In this document: one piece after another, positions 4,563 through 32,215 of the stretch | Layout: each line of letters opens with the position of its first letter | Numbering within the stretch: the stretch's first letter is position 1 | Source of the DNA: Kineosporiaceae bacterium SCSIO 59966 | GTDB lineage: Bacteria > Actinomycetota > Actinomycetes > Actinomycetales > SCSIO-59966 | NCBI GenBank assembly: GCA_020881835.1 | Contig: CP052876.1 | Location: 868,001-932,000, forward strand | Reading direction: 5' to 3' | DNA: 64,000 nt | Position numbers and translations under genes: made by a program | Notes under the pieces: model-generated | What the model was told of the DNA's origin: nothing | Database searches by the model: none | The model's input: only the letters and a program-made list of their open reading frames with translations

Positions 4563-6083
4563 GTGACCTCCGAAGACCAGACCCCGTCGCCGGACCTGGC
4601 CGCCGGTGCGGGCGCGACCGCCGTCCGGGTGCGCTTCTGCCCCTCCCCGACCGGGACGCCGCACGTCGGCCTGCTGCGCACGGCACTGTTCAACTGGGCC
4701 TACGCCCGGCACACCGGCGGCCGGCTGGTCTTCCGCATCGAGGACACCGACGCCGCGCGCGACAGCGAGGAGAGCTACCACCAGCTGCTCGACGCGATGC
4801 GCTGGCTCGGCCTGGACTGGGACGAGGGTGTCGAGGTCGGCGGTCCGCACGCGCCGTACCGGCAGTCGCAGCGCGGGGAGATCTACGCCGACGTCCTGGC
4901 TCGGCTCGTCGAGGGCGGTCACGTCTACGAGTCCTTCTCCACCCCGGAGGAGATCGAGCGTCGGCACCTCGCGGCCGGCCGGGACCCCAAGCTCGGCTAC
5001 GACAACCACGACCGCGACCTCACCGTCGAGCAGCGGACTGCGCTGCGGGCCGAGGGCCGCACCCCGGTGCTGCGGCTGCGGATGCCCGACCAGGACGTCG
5101 TGGTCCACGACCTCGTCCGCGGGGAGGTCCGGTTCCCCGCCGGGAGCGTGCCCGACTTCGTCGTCGCGCGCGCCACCGGCCAGCCGCTGTACACCCTGGT
5201 CAACCCCGTCGACGACGCCCTCATGGGCATCACCCACGTGCTCCGCGGCGAGGACCTGCTCTCCTCGACCCCACGGCAGATCGCGCTGTACCAGGCGCTG
5301 CAGGACATCGGGCTGACCGACCGCGTACCGCAGTTCGGCCACCTGCCGTACGTCCTGGGGGAGGGCAACCGCAAGCTGTCCAAGCGCGACCCCGAGTCCA
5401 ACCTGTTCCACCACCGCGACCGCGGGTTCCTGCCCGAGGGGATGCTCAACTACCTGGCCCTGCTCGGCTGGGCAATCGCCCCGGACCGGGACGTGTTCAC
5501 CGCCGAGGAGATGGTGGCCGCCTTCGACGTCACCGCGGTCAACCCCAACCCGGCGCGGTTCGACGTCCGCAAGGCCGAGGCGATCAACGCCGCCCACGTC
5601 CGCCGGCTGACGGCCCGTGAGCTGCGTGACCGGCTCGTGCCGTACCTGCGCGCGGCCGGACTGCTCGGCGAGGAGCCCACCGCCGACCAGCTCGCCGTCC
5701 TGGACGCCGCCACCCCACTGGTCCAGGAGCGGATGACGCTGCTCGGTGAGGCGCCGGGGATGCTGGGGTTCCTGCTGCGGGACGACGCCGAGCACGTCGT
5801 CGAGGACGACGCGCTGGCCGCGCTGCCTCCGGAGGCGGCGCAGGTGCTCGCGGCGGCCATCGAGGCGCTCGAGCCGGTCACGGACTGGCGGGCGGCCACC
5901 ATCGAGGCGGCGCTGCGGGAGGCGCTCGTCGACCGGCTCGGCGTCAAGCCCAAGTTCGCCTTCGCCCCGGTCCGGGCGGCCGTCACCGGTCGCCGGGTGT
6001 CGCCGCCGCTGTTCGAGTCCATGGAGATCCTCGGCCGCGACCCGAGCCTGCGCCGGATCGCCGCGCTGCGCGAGCGACTGTGA
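4563..6083 (+). CDS. gltX: Glutamate--tRNA ligase
   Basis: Charges tRNA-Glu with glutamate. The class I signatures are present: PTGTPHVG at residues 29-36 (HIGH equivalent, inside [20 protein letters not shown]) and KLSKR at 271-275 (KMSKS equivalent). The 506-residue length fits discriminating or non-discriminating bacterial GluRS; specificity cannot be told from this window. The GTG start lies eight bases after a TAGGCT hexamer (4549-4554), so the leader is very short or absent. It overlaps the next gene by four bases (GTGA). tRNA-Gln and tRNA-Glu genes lie about 1 kb downstream. Confidence 0.98.
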
Positions 6084-7030: not shown

Positions 7031-7077
7031 CCTGCGGCGGTAGGACGCCGGCGCGCAGCACCCGGTGGAATACCCCT

Positions 7078-7149
7078 TGGGGTATGGTGTAATTGGCAGC
7101 ACGACTGATTCTGGTTCAGTTAGTCTAGGTTCGAGTCCTGGTACCCCAG
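7078..7149 (+). tRNA. tRNA-Gln (anticodon CTG)
   Basis: A full cloverleaf can be drawn: acceptor TGGGGTA paired with TACCCCA (7142-7148), anticodon stem ACTGA/TCAGT around the loop TTCTGGT giving anticodon CTG, and T arm with TTCGAGT. The discriminator is G7149 and CCA is not encoded. The seven bases just upstream (TACCCCT, 7071-7077) nearly copy the 3' acceptor strand, making a 16-base palindrome across the 5' end. Confidence 0.95.
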
Positions 7150-7217
7150 CGCGAGTTGGGACTCCCCGCCCTCACCGGCTAGAGTCCCCTTCGCTCCGGC
7201 TCCTCGGAGCAGCGCAC

Positions 7218-27364: not shown

Positions 27365-28270
27365 GTGCCCGAGCTGCCCGAGGTCGAGGTGGTGCGGCGC
27401 GGCCTCGTGCGCTGGGTGGTCGGCTCCCGGCTCGGCGCCGTCGAGGTCCTGCACCCCCGGCCGGTGCGCCGCCACCTGGCCGGTCCCGCGGATCTGGCGG
27501 CCCGGCTGCAGGGGGCCGTCGCCGTCGACGCGGTGCGCCGGGGCAAGTACCTGTGGCTCCAGCTCGACTCCGACGAGGCCCTGCTCGTGCACCTCGGGAT
27601 GAGCGGCCAGCTGCTGGTGCAGCCCCTGGACGCCCCCGCCGAGCGGCACCTGCGGGTGCGGGTGGGCCTGGACGGCGAGCGCGAGCTGCGGTTCGTCGAC
27701 CAGCGGATGTTCGGCGGGCTGGCCGTCGTCCCCCTCGAGCCCACCGCGGACGGTCTGCCGGCCGGCACCGGCGGCGCCGGGACGCCGTCCGCCGCTGCCC
27801 TGCCGCACCAGGTCGCGCACATCGCCCGGGACCCGCTGGACCCGTACCTGGACGTCGAGGCCTGGCAGCGTCGGCTGCGCCGCCGGCGCACCGGGGTCAA
27901 GCGGGCCCTGCTCGACCAGACCCTGCTGTCGGGGATCGGCAACATCTACGCCGACGAGGCGCTGTGGCGCGCGCGGCTGCACTACGCCCGGCCCACGGAC
28001 ACCCTGACCCGCGCCGCCGCCGTGGGGTTGCTCGGGCACGTCCGGGCGGTGCTGGGGGAGGCCCTGCAGCAGGGCGGGACGAGCTTCGACGCCCTCTACG
28101 TCGACGTCAACGGGCGCAGTGGCTGGTTCGACCGGTCGCTGGCGGTCTACGGCCAGGCGGGCCGACCCTGCCCGAGGTGTGCAGCGCTCGTGCGCCGCGA
28201 GCCGTTCATGAACCGTTCGTCGTTCACCTGCCCGGCGTGCCAGCGCCCGCCCCGGCGGGCACGCTGGTGA
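27365..28270 (+). CDS. mutM: Formamidopyrimidine-DNA glycosylase
   Basis: Base-excision repair of 8-oxoguanine and Fapy lesions with AP-lyase activity. 301 residues: MPELPEVE start providing the catalytic Pro2/Glu3, Lys61 in RRGKYLW, the helix-two-turn-helix segment [15 protein letters not shown], and a C-terminal zinc finger with two CxxC pairs around PFMNRSSF. It begins five bases after rnc, and acyP follows after a single box A repeat. Confidence 0.97.
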
Positions 28271-28294
28271 CCGGAGCGGGTTCGTCACCGCTGT

Positions 28295-28313
28295 GCCGGG
28301 ACTGCATGATCAC
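28295..28313 (-). repeat. Solo box A copy between mutM and acyP
   Basis: GCCGGGACTGCATGATCAC is a reverse-orientation box A of the family at 19724-20255. It ends four bases before the GGGAGG that serves as the acyP ribosome-binding site, so it lies in the acyP 5' region. Confidence 0.85.
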
Positions 28314-28327
28314 GAAGGGAGGGTCGA

Positions 28328-28621
28328 GTGGGCGCACCGCAGGACGTCGCGCGGCTCACCGCCGTGGTGCGCGGGCACGTCCAGGGGGTCGGGTTCCGCA
28401 GCTGGGTCCGCTCGCAGGCGCTCGCGCTCGGTCTGGTCGGCCACGCGCGTAACACCGACGACGGTCGCGTCGAGGTGGTCGCCGAGGGGGCCCCGGCGGC
28501 TCTGGCCGAGCTGCTCGCGCGGCTCGAGGGGCCGGTGCCCGGGCGGCCCGGTCGGGTGACGGGGGTCAGCGCCCGGTGGGCCGAGGCCACCGGGCGGCCG
28601 GCCGGCTTCGTCGAGCGGTGA
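28328..28621 (+). CDS. acyP: Acylphosphatase
   Basis: Hydrolyses acyl phosphates. A 97-residue small alpha/beta protein with the signature GHVQGVGFRSWVRSQA (catalytic Arg in GFR) and the Asn of GHARNTDDGRVEVVAEG. The C-terminus is slightly extended. GTG at 28328 follows GGGAGG. Its location between mutM and smc is common in actinobacteria. Confidence 0.94.
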   Translation: MGAPQDVARLTAVVRGHVQGVGFRSWVRSQALALGLVGHARNTDDGRVEVVAEGAPAALAELLARLEGPVPGRPGRVTGVSARWAEATGRPAGFVER

Positions 28622-28631
28622 CCGCTTCCGG

Positions 28632-28660
28632 TTGACCGCGCATACCCCCCTGGGTATTGT
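28632..28660 (+). promoter_or_regulatory. Promoter with CsoR/RicR-like operator
   Basis: -35 TTGACC (28632-28637), 17-base spacer and -10 TATTGT (28655-28660). The inverted repeat ATACCC-CCCT-GGGTAT (28642-28657) fills the spacer and overlaps the -10. TACCC...GGGTA arms are characteristic of operators bound by CsoR/RicR-family copper sensors. The regulator is not in the window. Operator identity is inferred from the motif. Confidence 0.65.
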
Positions 28661-28696
28661 TCGGACAACCGTCCCACCGACCCGGAGGAGATCGCC

Positions 28697-28810
28697 ATGT
28701 GCAGCCCCGTCGTCTGCCGTCAGTGCAACAAGATCACCTGGTCCGGTTGCGGCATGCACGTCGACCAGGTGATGGCCGGCGTCCCGCAGGACCGCCGCTG
28801 CACCTGCTGA
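28697..28810 (+). CDS. 37-residue Cys-rich miniprotein, possible metal-binding protein
   Basis: A very small protein with six Cys (2, 7, 10, 18, 35, 37) and one His (21): MCSPVVCRQC near the start, WSGCGMHVDQVMAGVP in the middle and RCTC at the end. I recall similar short Cys-rich hypothetical proteins in other actinobacteria. A GGAGGAGA ribosome site lies about nine bases before the ATG, and a good promoter with a CsoR/RicR-like operator lies upstream, so expression is credible. The terminal CTC resembles copper metallothionein ends such as mycobacterial MymT, but similarity is too short to claim homology. A role in copper or thiol handling is inferred. Confidence 0.75.
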   Translation: MCSPVVCRQCNKITWSGCGMHVDQVMAGVPQDRRCTC

Positions 28811-28822
28811 GCCTCGCTCAGC
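28806..28822. terminator. Hairpin across the convergent stops of the miniprotein gene and cydC
   Basis: GCTGAGC (28806-28812), loop CTC, GCTCAGC (28816-28822): a perfect 7-bp stem containing both stop codons. Only seven bases separate the genes, so this is the likely bidirectional terminator. Confidence 0.5.
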
Positions 28823-30533
28823 GCAGCTGCCCGGCCTCCCAGTCCACCGCCGCGCGGTAGTCCGGCCGGCCGAGCAGCACCTCGTGCGGGCCCCGGGCCA
28901 CGACCCGGCCCCCGCCGAGCAGCAGCACCTCGTCGACGGCCGCCAGGCCGGCGAGCCGGTGGCTCACCACGAGTAGACCGCGCCCGCCGGCCCGGCAGGC
29001 CGCCGCGAGGTCCGCGACGAGTGCGTCGGCGGACGCCGGGTCCAGGTGCTCGGCCGGTTCGTCGACGAGCAGCGTCGTCGCGCCGGTCAGCAGCGCCCGG
29101 GCCACGAGCAGCCGCCGGCGCTGGCCGCCGGACAGGTCCGTCCCCCCGCTGGCCAGCACCGTCTCCAGCCCCTGGGGCAGGGAGGCCAGCCACGGGCCGA
29201 GCCCCACCGTCTCCACGGCCCGCACGAGGACGGCGTCCGGGACTGCCCCGGCGGCCAGCCGGAGGTTCTCGGCCACCGTCGTGCCGAAGACGTGCGCCTC
29301 CTCACTGGTGAGGTGGACCGTCCCGGCGTGCACCGTGCCGGCCCGCGGCGGCAGCAGCCCGGCCAGCGTGAGCAGCAGGGTGCTCTTGCCCTCCCCGCTC
29401 GGCCCGGCGACCGCGACGACGCGACCCGGGGGGACGTCCAGGTCGATCCCCCGCAGCAGGACCGGTCCGTCCGGCCACCCGACGGCCAGCCCACGGGCGA
29501 CCAGGCCCCCTCCCGCGGCGTGCGAGCGCGGCGAGGGAACCCGGGCGGGGACCGGGGCCCCGGTCTCCTGCCCGGCCAGCAGGTCCGCCAGGCGGGCCGC
29601 CGCGTCCCGGCCGCGGACCAGCTCGGTCGCGGCCGCCGGCAGCTGGGCCACCGCCTCGGCGGCCGCCAGCGGCAGCAGGACGACGACCGGCAGCCACACC
29701 TCGCCGAGCGTGCCGGCACGGACCGCCGCAGAGCCCAGGACGAGCGCGCCCAGGACGGCCGCCCCGGTGGCGAGCACCTGGACCGCCGAGGCGAGGGCCG
29801 CCGGGCGCGCGGCGCGGTCGAGCCGCTGCGCCAGGTCAGCCTCGAGCTCCGCCAGCCGACGCCGCCGGGCGGGGACCGCACCGGCCACCTCGAGCTCGGC
29901 GAGCCCGTCGAGCAGTGCCGCGGTCTCGGCGGTGACCGCCTCGCGGGCCTGCTGGGCTCCGCGCAGGGCCTCGGTGGCCGAGCGGGCCGCCAGCTGCGGG
30001 GCCACGACGCCGGCCACGAGCAGGGCAGCCAGCAGCACGACGCCGGCGGCCGGCAGCACGAGGGTGGTGGCGAGCACCGCGCCCAGGCCGACGACGAGCG
30101 CCACCGCGAACGGCAGGATGCCGCGGACGACGACGTCCCCGACGGCGTCCACGTCGTCGCCGAACCGCGTCAGCAGCTCCCCGCGGCGCAGGGCCGCGAC
30201 CCGCTGCGGCGGGGCCGTGGCGAGCGACCGGTACACCCGCTCGCGCAGCACGACGAGCCCGCGCAGGGCGAGGTCGTGGGCGGCGACCCGCTCGAGGTAG
30301 CGGAACACCCCGCGGCCGATGCCCAGCGCCCGGACGCTGACCACTGCCAGGGTCAGGTCGAGCACCGGCGGCTGCTGCGAGGCCCGGGCGATCAACCACG
30401 CCGAGACGCCGGTGAGGGCCACGGCGCTGCCGAGGGCGAGGGCTCCGGCGAGGACGGCGACCGCGGCGCGCCGGGGCTCCACCTCCAGCGCGGCGAGCAC
30501 CTCGTGCAGCGGTCGCCGCGGGCGCGGGCTCAC
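28818..30533 (-). CDS. cydC: Thiol reductant ABC exporter subunit CydC
   Basis: Half of the CydDC heterodimer that exports cysteine/glutathione-type thiols and is required for assembly of the bd oxidase. 571 residues: about six transmembrane helices in the first 290, then an ATPase domain with Walker A GPSGEGKST, signature LSGGQRRRLLVARAL and Walker B TLLVDEPAEHLDP (the catalytic Glu is present in DEP). The GTG start overlaps the cydD stop by four bases. Last gene of the reverse-strand cydABDC cluster. Confidence 0.94.
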   Translation of the reverse strand: MSPRPRRPLHEVLAALEVEPRRAAVAVLAGALALGSAVALTGVSAWLIARASQQPPVLDLTLAVVSVRALGIGRGVFRYLERVAAHDLALRGLVVLRERVYRSLATAPPQRVAALRRGELLTRFGDDVDAVGDVVVRGILPFAVALVVGLGAVLATTLVLPAAGVVLLAALLVAGVVAPQLAARSATEALRGAQQAREAVTAETAALLDGLAELEVAGAVPARRRRLAELEADLAQRLDRAARPAALASAVQVLATGAAVLGALVLGSAAVRAGTLGEVWLPVVVLLPLAAAEAVAQLPAAATELVRGRDAAARLADLLAGQETGAPVPARVPSPRSHAAGGGLVARGLAVGWPDGPVLLRGIDLDVPPGRVVAVAGPSGEGKSTLLLTLAGLLPPRAGTVHAGTVHLTSEEAHVFGTTVAENLRLAAGAVPDAVLVRAVETVGLGPWLASLPQGLETVLASGGTDLSGGQRRRLLVARALLTGATTLLVDEPAEHLDPASADALVADLAAACRAGGRGLLVVSHRLAGLAAVDEVLLLGGGRVVARGPHEVLLGRPDYRAAVDWEAGQLR

Positions 30534-32215
30534 ACCGGCACCCGCTCAGCGGCGGCGGCCCGGACGGTCACGACGTCGTCGGCGGCTGCGACCAGGGCGG
30601 GACGGTGGGCGACGACGAGGACCGCGCACCCGGCGTCGCGCAGCCTCGCGATGACGTCCAGGGGCAGCCGTTCGCTGCCGGCGTCGAGGTGGGCGGTGGG
30701 CTCGTCGAGCACGACGACGTGTGCGCCGCGGGCCACCCGCAGCAGCGCGCGGGCCAGGGCGACCCGCTGCCGCTGCCCCGCGGACAGGCCCGACCCGCCG
30801 GCCCCCAGCGCGGTCTGCCACCCACCCGGCAGGGTGTCGACCACTTCGTCGAGCCCGGCCTGCGCCGCCGCGGCGCGCACCTCGTCGTCCGTGGCGTCAG
30901 GGGCGACGAGCCGGACGTTGCCGGCCAGGGTGTCGGGGACGAGGACGGGTCGCTGGGGGACCCAGGCGAGGCGGGACCGCCAGGCGTCCGGGTCCACCTC
31001 GGCCAGGTCCACCGGCGGTCCGCCGTCCGGCGGCACGACGAGCACCCTCCCGGCGTCCGGCCGGCGCAGGCCCAGGAGCACCTCGACCGCGGTCGACTTG
31101 CCGGCCCCGCTGTCGCCGACGAGGGCGGTGACCCTCCCGGGGACCAGCTCGAGGTCCAGGTCCGCGGGTGCGGTGACCGCCCGGCCGGGGTGCTCGACGC
31201 CCACTGCCTCGAACCGGATGCCACCGACCGCGGGAGCGGGCACCGTGCCGGCCCGGCGCACCGGGCCGGCCAGGACGTCGAGGGCCTCCCCGGCCGCGGC
31301 GATCCCGTCGGCGCTGGCGTGGAAGTGCTGCCCGACCATCCGCAGCGGCAGGTACACCTCGGGAGCGAGCACGAGGACGACGAGACCGGTCCGCAGGTCG
31401 AGGTCACCGGAGACCAGGCGCAGCCCGATGCCGACCGCGACGAGCGCGACCGCCAGGGTGGTGAACAGCTCGAGCACGAGGCTGGACAGGAACGCCTGGC
31501 GCAGCACCGCGCTGGTCGAGCGGCGGTAGGCCTCCCCGACCGCACGAACCCGGGCGGCCTGGTCGAGCTCGCGGCCGAGGGCCCGCAGCGTCGGCAGGCC
31601 GGCGACGAGGTCGAGCAGCTGCTCGCCGAGCCGCTCCATCCGCGCCATCCGCACCCGGGCCCGGCTGCGCGTCGTCCAGCCGACGAGGGCCATGAACAGC
31701 GGCACCAGCGGGAGGGTCACCGCCATGAGCACCGCGGACAGCAGGTCCTGGGTGAGGACGACGGCCAGCAGGGCCGGGGTCACCAGGGCGGTCGCGAGCA
31801 GCTGTGGCAGGTAGCGCACGAGGTAGCCGTCGAGGGCGTCCAGGCCGCGGGTCGCCAGGGTGGTCAGTGCGGCGGTCCTGCCGTGCAGCGCCGCCGGGCC
31901 GGCCGCCGCGAGGTGGTCGACGAGGGCGCCGCGCAGCTCGGCGACGACGTCCACGGCCGCCCGGTGGGCGAACCGCTCCTGGGCGCCGGCGAGCAGGGCC
32001 CGCGCGCCGACGACGAGGACCAGCCAGGCCACCGCCGTCCCGACCGAGGCGGCCGTGGCCGACCCGGTGACGACCCCGGCCAGCGCGTCGCCCAGCAGGA
32101 ACGCCTGGACCACGACGAGCGCGGCGTTGCCGACCTGGAGCGCGGCGGCGAGCGCCACCCAGCCGCGGGCCGCCCGGGCCCGGACCAGCAGCCGCGGGTC
32201 GAGCGGTGCGCTCAC
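30530..32215 (-). CDS. cydD: Thiol reductant ABC exporter subunit CydD
   Basis: Partner of CydC. 561 residues: membrane domain (about 1-300) followed by ATPase motifs GDSGAGKST, LSAGQRQRVALARAL and VVLDEPTAHLD. The frame is open further upstream, but the GTG at 32215 forms a GTGA overlap with the cydB stop and gives the usual N-terminus, so I chose it. Order A-B-D-C with overlaps means the whole unit is one operon. Confidence 0.94.
   Translation of the reverse strand: MSAPLDPRLLVRARAARGWVALAAALQVGNAALVVVQAFLLGDALAGVVTGSATAASVGTAVAWLVLVVGARALLAGAQERFAHRAAVDVVAELRGALVDHLAAAGPAALHGRTAALTTLATRGLDALDGYLVRYLPQLLATALVTPALLAVVLTQDLLSAVLMAVTLPLVPLFMALVGWTTRSRARVRMARMERLGEQLLDLVAGLPTLRALGRELDQAARVRAVGEAYRRSTSAVLRQAFLSSLVLELFTTLAVALVAVGIGLRLVSGDLDLRTGLVVLVLAPEVYLPLRMVGQHFHASADGIAAAGEALDVLAGPVRRAGTVPAPAVGGIRFEAVGVEHPGRAVTAPADLDLELVPGRVTALVGDSGAGKSTAVEVLLGLRRPDAGRVLVVPPDGGPPVDLAEVDPDAWRSRLAWVPQRPVLVPDTLAGNVRLVAPDATDDEVRAAAAQAGLDEVVDTLPGGWQTALGAGGSGLSAGQRQRVALARALLRVARGAHVVVLDEPTAHLDAGSERLPLDVIARLRDAGCAVLVVAHRPALVAAADDVVTVRAAAAERVPV

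Follow-up and report, generated by a model that had tools for sequence, protein, structure and literature searches.

A putative CstR-repressed, Cys/His-rich miniprotein associated with persulfide homeostasis in Actinomycetota

Introduction

In Streptomyces coelicolor the sulfane-sulfur sensor ScCsoR (SCO0620), a protein with two Cys residues, binds ATACC-n6-GGTAT at the promoters of dioxygenase and rhodanese genes and has TauE as a further target, in what PMC7533328 presents as a four-gene circuit. Two other persulfide-sensing repressors of the CsoR family are CstR from S. aureus and YrkD from B. licheniformis (PMC9918477). MymT is a copper metallothionein of the mycobacterial RicR regulon (PMC10961391).

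Here we analyse a gene for a 37-residue Cys-rich protein of Kineosporiaceae bacterium SCSIO 59966, found in a 64-kb stretch of DNA (64,000 nucleotides) which we call the window. With MymT the protein shares its short length, its richness in Cys and a place under a CsoR-family repressor. PMC10961391 assigns MymT to a copper regulon, and we set the two proteins apart by regulon and neighbours. The ScCsoR circuit is alike in repressor type (CsoR family, two Cys), operator spacing and partner genes; unlike that circuit, the regulon proposed here spreads over several promoters and counts the miniprotein among its members, of which the passages of PMC7533328 consulted make no mention. The likeness to CstR and YrkD lies in the control of rhodanese, dioxygenase, TauE and thioredoxin genes, whereas the passages of PMC9918477 consulted do not name the miniprotein family and our own genome search covered Actinomycetota. 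Bacterial metallothioneins and Pfam zinc-finger families are likewise small and rich in Cys/His, but no Pfam model matches any of 72 miniprotein members at E 0.01. A search of the open-licence literature, which included core peptide sequences, returned no description of the family.

Results

A preliminary description of this DNA had proposed a near-ideal promoter with a TACCC...GGGTA palindrome in its spacer, driving a gene for a 37-residue product with six Cys residues and RCTC at its end, and all of these are present (Table 1). The two hexamers stand 17 bases apart and form the single promoter-like site in 28000–29500, against a mean of 0.0 in shuffled sequence. The 14-bp core palindrome TACCCCCCTGGGTA (TACCC-N4-GGGTA, below N4; other spacings are named likewise) occupies 28643–28656 and runs into the -10 hexamer, and the surrounding 16-bp site reads ATACC-CCCCTG-GGTAT. 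Translation of the ORF yields MCSPVVCRQCNKITWSGCGMHVDQVMAGVPQDRRCTC, whose ligand-type residues are C2, C7, C10, C18, H21, C35 and C37.

Table 1 Features of the window locus and further N4 sites at reactive-sulfur genes of the same genome.
Feature	Position	Strand	Remarks
Acylphosphatase gene	28328–28621	+	PF00708, E 1.3e-21; upstream; outside proposed system
-35 hexamer TTGACC	28632–28637	+	Sequence and promoter scan
Predicted operator, 16 bp, ATACCCCCCTGGGTAT	28642–28657	+	Within promoter spacer, overlaps -10
-10 hexamer TATTGT	28655–28660	+	First bases common to operator right half
Shine-Dalgarno-like GGAGGAG	28684–28690	+	6 bases 5' of ATG, by eye
Cys/His miniprotein ORF	28697–28810	+	37 residues; short form (core, without C-terminal tail)
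cydC	28818–30533	-	TIGR02868, 505 bits against cut-off 329; convergent; outside proposed system
cydD	30533–32215	-	Convergent with miniprotein gene
N4 site	L043		Between CstR-like gene and divergent rhodanese and persulfide dioxygenase genes
N4 site	L044:4703–4716; G000 C1:2244202		Rhodanese-thioredoxin-DUF302 set
N4 site			Thioredoxin gene
N4 site			Rhodanese lipoprotein gene

Homologues are present in 32 of 59 relatives; a single-sequence query found them in 47 of 396 genomes across the phylum, and a profile in 118 of 296 across the class. In homologous pairs the median pN/pS is 0.42 and 98.5% of the sampled pairs lie below 1, that is, change is mostly synonymous. Judged by these comparisons, 28697–28810 is a real gene, given its homologues in more than half of the relatives and the synonymous nature of their differences. 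The protein proved unrelated to the annotated families tested: at E 0.01, neither Pfam nor NCBIfam has a model that matches a single one of 72 members; in PHROGs one member had a match at that threshold, and none was usable. The genomes searched were those of Actinomycetota, other groups being reached through plasmid, phage and viral collections, and genes were called by a simple script that scores codons after training on genes of the window. The ten genera listed among 78 plasmid records are actinobacterial. One named locus (L150) comes from a metagenome-assembled genome labelled Acidobacteria and ends at a contig edge.

Neighbourhoods were studied in 80 named loci, selected by the pattern KxTW[AST]GCGxH together with similarity to a long-form query; they are the best 80 of 588 confirmed candidates, and short forms like that of the window are under-represented among them. 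The pattern preselected columns 12, 14–19 and 21 in these 80 loci, whereas C2, C7, C10, C35 and the end of the protein were free to vary. Across 132 distinct members residues 1–35 align without a gap, there is no variation at C7, C10, G17, C18, G19, H21 and C35, and C2 is found in 131. At the last ligand position only C or H occurs, in the form C-x-C (31 members), C-x-G-H (92) or C-x-G-x-H (9). Lengths range from 37 to 67 aa among 139 collected proteins, most of which have 52–67 aa and none of which is a fused form. Long forms continue through a variable linker into a tail such as FLxRLFGR (94 of the 132 by a loose pattern); the window protein has no tail, so the core must be able to function without one.

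AlphaFold2 predicts a beta-hairpin and a helix for the window protein (mean pLDDT 82.7, pTM 0.43) and, in a long member, a tail helix at residues 45–55 with a pLDDT of only 51–59. Foldseek returned 39 matches to solved structures at E up to 10 and none at 0.001, and the best E-value of a sequence-profile search of the PDB was 0.081, so no solved fold was matched. The core contains the knuckle-like pairs C-x2-C and C-x2-H, and these pairs, together with the exchange of C and H at the last ligand, suggest metal binding; we infer that the miniprotein is likely to be a metal-binding fold. Zinc is the usual metal for such Cys/His pairs, and is here no less plausible than copper.

The preliminary description had also called for a search of the genome for other copies of the operator and for a csoR or ricR gene. 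Further copies of the operator and genes of the CsoR family were found. The 14-bp N4 pattern occurs at eight places in the 3.1-Mb genome, against two for its backwards control, which makes a match inside a given promoter unlikely by chance. Besides the window site, four lie at reactive-sulfur genes (Table 1), one over tRNA-Gln and two inside ORFs. The site of the rhodanese-thioredoxin-DUF302 set is identical to that of the window over all 14 bases. This operator is common to that set and a divergent SAM methyltransferase gene, whose product weakly resembles TehB and is a candidate for sulfur methylation within the regulon; such a gene is near only one of the 80 named homologous loci (best 80 of 588). 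The copy over tRNA-Gln lies in the window itself, where a perfect 16-bp operator-like palindrome, ATACCCCTTGGGGTAT, at 7070–7085 overlaps the 5' end of the tRNA gene (7078–7150); since tRNA-Gln starts with TGGGGTATGG, this is probably a chance match, although it may alternatively be a regulator site.

Four CsoR-family (PF02583) genes are present, three with the copper-type C-H-C signature and one with C-G-C, and the likely regulator is this last, CstR-like one, not a copper-type protein. The CstR-like protein has two Cys and carries Gly at the place of the copper-binding His. Its gene (G000 C1:1961613–1961876) is divergent from a rhodanese gene and one for a metallo-beta-lactamase/rhodanese protein of the kind typical of persulfide dioxygenases by Pfam, beyond which we named OsmC-, DsrE-, DsrC- and SQR-like genes by eye. 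The three C-H-C repressor genes, read in the same way, stand with copper chaperone and ATPase genes, and all three loci (L047–L049) have N5 palindromes; four further N5 sites fell outside the comparison. Two operator spacings thus occur in one genome, N4 at the CstR-like locus and N5 at the copper-type loci. The NCBIfam RicR model scores the CstR-like protein at 44 bits and a copper-type paralogue at 135, with a cut-off of 175. Among the best PDB matches of the CstR-like protein, CsoR, InrS and FrmR-like chains have comparable E-values (entry 7mq1 is a CstR), and sequence searches alone leave the repressor unsorted.

Among homologues the N4 operator recurs. Counted by eye, it lies at most 160 bp upstream in 15 of 30 relatives' loci (N3 in one), and in seven of the nine short forms (up to 42 aa) among these first 30 loci. 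In 79 upstream regions of 300 bp from the named loci (best 80 of 588), N4 was found in 44, N3 in two and N11 in one, and all other spacings from 0 to 12, N5 included, in none. Some copies thus lack the operator. Over the whole length of the named loci (from the best 80 of 588), N4 is present in 68, N3 in three, N5 in one and N11 in one; the control palindrome ATCCC-N4-GGGAT is present in one. In a pool of 131 distinct upstreams the numbers were 64, 3 and 1 for N4, N3 and N11, and in 38 of the 64 with N4 a TATNNT lies over the right half, an overlap of operator and -10 like that seen in the window. The 250 bp upstream of the CstR-type genes themselves contained N4 in 14 of 55 fetched cases, N3 in one and no site in 40, and those of three copper-type genes N5 in one and none in two; both counts are a weak test.

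Sulfur genes are frequent around the miniprotein. Within 5 kb, a CstR-type gene was found in 43 of the 80 named loci (best 80 of 588), and none of these 43 repressors is C-H-C, all being without the copper His. CoA-disulfide-reductase-like cores were found in 26 and persulfide-dioxygenase-like cores in 25 of the same best 80 of 588, counted by cores because whole queries were inflated (43 and 32) by a common rhodanese domain; rhodanese matches occur in 33 of these 80 loci and may fall within either kind of protein. TauE and thioredoxin were each matched in 13 of these loci (best 80 of 588) and the copper ATPase CopA in six; CopZ and Fpg gave no match in any of the 80. At least one of CstR, the CoA-disulfide-reductase core and the dioxygenase core accompanies the miniprotein in 59 of the best 80 of 588, and 74 of them have such a neighbour or the operator, leaving six with neither. 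CstR, dioxygenase and CoA-disulfide-reductase-like genes often directly adjoin the miniprotein gene. In the 59 relatives the miniprotein occurs in 24 of 27 with the 16-bp operator versus 8 of 32 without it (p 1e-6), and in 26 of 33 with CstR versus 6 of 26 without (p 2e-5), by Fisher tests that ignore relatedness.

Plasmids of Rhodococcus and Arthrobacter carry the miniprotein inside sulfur clusters of this kind with C-G-C repressors. In pRHL3 of R. jostii RHA1 it (RHA1_RS51140) lies between dioxygenase/thioredoxin and rhodanese/CstR/DUF302/TauE genes, with N4 45 bp upstream. A gene for an MMPL-family transporter is found in seven of the 80 named loci (best 80 of 588) and in two Rhodococcus plasmids (clusters L122, L123, L139, L186, L190, L193, L194 and others); in plasmid pdjl-6-4 the miniprotein (L194:7001–7111) fills a gap in the incomplete distributed gene table, between the dioxygenase and MMPL genes.

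The gene had at first been noted to sit against cydDC. The adjacency is real, but we rejected a link: cydDC and the miniprotein gene are convergent, and the CydA and CydD queries each matched one locus, the same one, among the 80 named (best 80 of 588), so that the adjacency looks incidental. Queries with sulfur genes gave no match within the window itself.

Not all copies lie in the sulfur regulon. Among the 32 relatives with the miniprotein, six have no CstR match and eight no 16-bp operator. In one family (f113, genomes of 1.2–2.2 Mb) operator and sulfur genes are both absent around the copy in 10 of 14 fetched loci, and four have the operator; in the same fetch, of 20 loci, four have two copies in one sulfur cluster, the short copy under N4. 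The operator-free copies of f113 (L262–L275) stand in constant contexts, for instance adjoining a gene named by eye as quinone-oxidoreductase-like, and operator-driven copies are added where a sulfur cluster is present. Such operator-free copies away from sulfur genes indicate that the job of the miniprotein is not bound to the sulfur regulon, and its chemistry probably reaches beyond it.

Three viral contigs with 35–37% GC (L229, L230 and L231) encode 37-residue versions near position 5001, which have all seven ligand positions, end in CNC, CKC and CTC and have no adjoining operator; two of these three AT-rich contigs carry tailed-phage-like genes or genes of no clear type. We rejected a phage or mobile origin of the family, since the pattern of the profile was found in only five contigs of the viral collection. 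A record named 'Bacteriophage sp.' and marked UNVERIFIED (MT835623.1, L195) contains a cluster of CstR, TauE and dioxygenase genes with three N4 sites and the miniprotein, and by its gene content looks like bacterial DNA.

Discussion

Family, conservation, operator and genetic linkage are observations made by comparison. On these genomic grounds we consider it very probable that the window gene is a member of a reactive-sulfur regulon and a target of the predicted CstR-like repressor; that the window site has the form ATACC-n6-GGTAT bound by ScCsoR counts for such a regulon. Our main reading, to which we give a probability of roughly 60%, is that the gene encodes a miniprotein which is repressed by CstR, probably binds metal and takes part in persulfide homeostasis.

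From the operator and its surroundings we infer the identity of the repressor and the course of induction at the window promoter. The CstR-like repressor most likely binds the 16-bp palindrome over the -10 and blocks transcription. Sulfane sulfur would modify its two Cys residues and release it, upon which the cell would produce the 37-residue protein alongside rhodanese, persulfide dioxygenase, thioredoxin and other proteins of that kind. We picture this product as, most likely, a small folded metal-thiolate protein with zinc as the probable metal, in which a beta-hairpin and a helix would be held by C7, C10, C18, H21 and the C35-x-C37 end. During sulfur stress it may serve as a buffer or carrier of sulfane sulfur, or it may shield metal-thiolate sites or replace them. 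This role as a buffer, carrier or guard is suggested by the sulfur genes that keep the miniprotein company, and we propose it only tentatively over other roles. It is conceivable, if rather speculative, that the family represents a dedicated, phylum-wide, persulfide-induced metal-thiolate protein, the sulfur counterpart of metallothionein, which takes up sulfane sulfur on its zinc thiolates and delivers it to rhodanese, dioxygenase or CoA-disulfide-reductase-like proteins, or which provides zinc where persulfides have stripped it away.

Ranked second after the buffer, carrier or guard role is a zinc-finger-like adaptor which binds and modulates the CoA-disulfide-reductase-like protein, rhodanese, dioxygenase or CstR, its Cys and His residues holding the fold and the FLxRLFGR tail of long forms serving as a docking helix. 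The rigid, gap-free 35-residue core shared by 132 distinct members would suit such a function, as would the tail motif conserved in 94 of them after a variable linker and predicted as a helix in a long member, the frequent direct adjacency of candidate partner genes, and the C-to-H exchange at the last ligand, which speaks for a metal with a structural role, and against a reactive thiol, at that place. Nevertheless, we hold an adaptor to be rather unlikely, as none of the 139 collected proteins is fused to a partner, the window form is tailless, no single partner gene is constant in the 80 named loci (best 80 of 588) and the tail helix is predicted with low pLDDT. Operator-free copies in constant non-sulfur contexts, in 10 of 14 f113 loci and a few other lineages, and the viral 37-residue versions with no adjoining operator would instead agree with a general zinc-buffering or housekeeping miniprotein, made at all times in many actinobacteria and drawn into the sulfur regulon on account of the loss of metals from thiolates that persulfides cause; with sulfur operator or genes at 74 of the best 80 of 588 loci, we regard this as improbable.

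Copper control was the original interpretation, which left room for a sulphide response as well, a palindrome of CsoR/RicR type having been taken as the hallmark of such operators. The assignment is sound as far as the repressor family goes but fails as a pointer to copper. A copper metallothionein under a CsoR/RicR copper repressor would be short and Cys-rich, as the window protein is, and the genome does contain copper-type PF02583 repressors. Their own loci, however, are marked by N5, which is absent from all 79 homologous upstreams (best 80 of 588), N4 instead marks reactive-sulfur genes, and the neighbourhood of the miniprotein differs from the copper setting of MymT, with CopZ in none and CopA in six of the 80 loci (best 80 of 588) and all 43 nearby repressors devoid of the copper His. 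We therefore consider copper control very unlikely. That the gene is a chance ORF under promoter-like sequence, for which its small size and nothing more can be said, is practically dismissed by the widespread homologues, the invariant residues and the mostly synonymous change.

The so far unnamed Cys-rich miniprotein is thus probably a new part of the handling of toxic sulfur in actinobacteria, a family common in these bacteria yet one for which neither Pfam nor NCBIfam has a model. The known persulfide regulons consist of enzymes, to which a universal small Cys/His protein would add a non-enzymatic buffer or carrier component and, if this is true, sulfur stress would be tied to metal-thiolate chemistry. 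The N4 and N5 spacings found in one genome offer a simple, testable sign by which persulfide and copper operators of one repressor family may be told apart.
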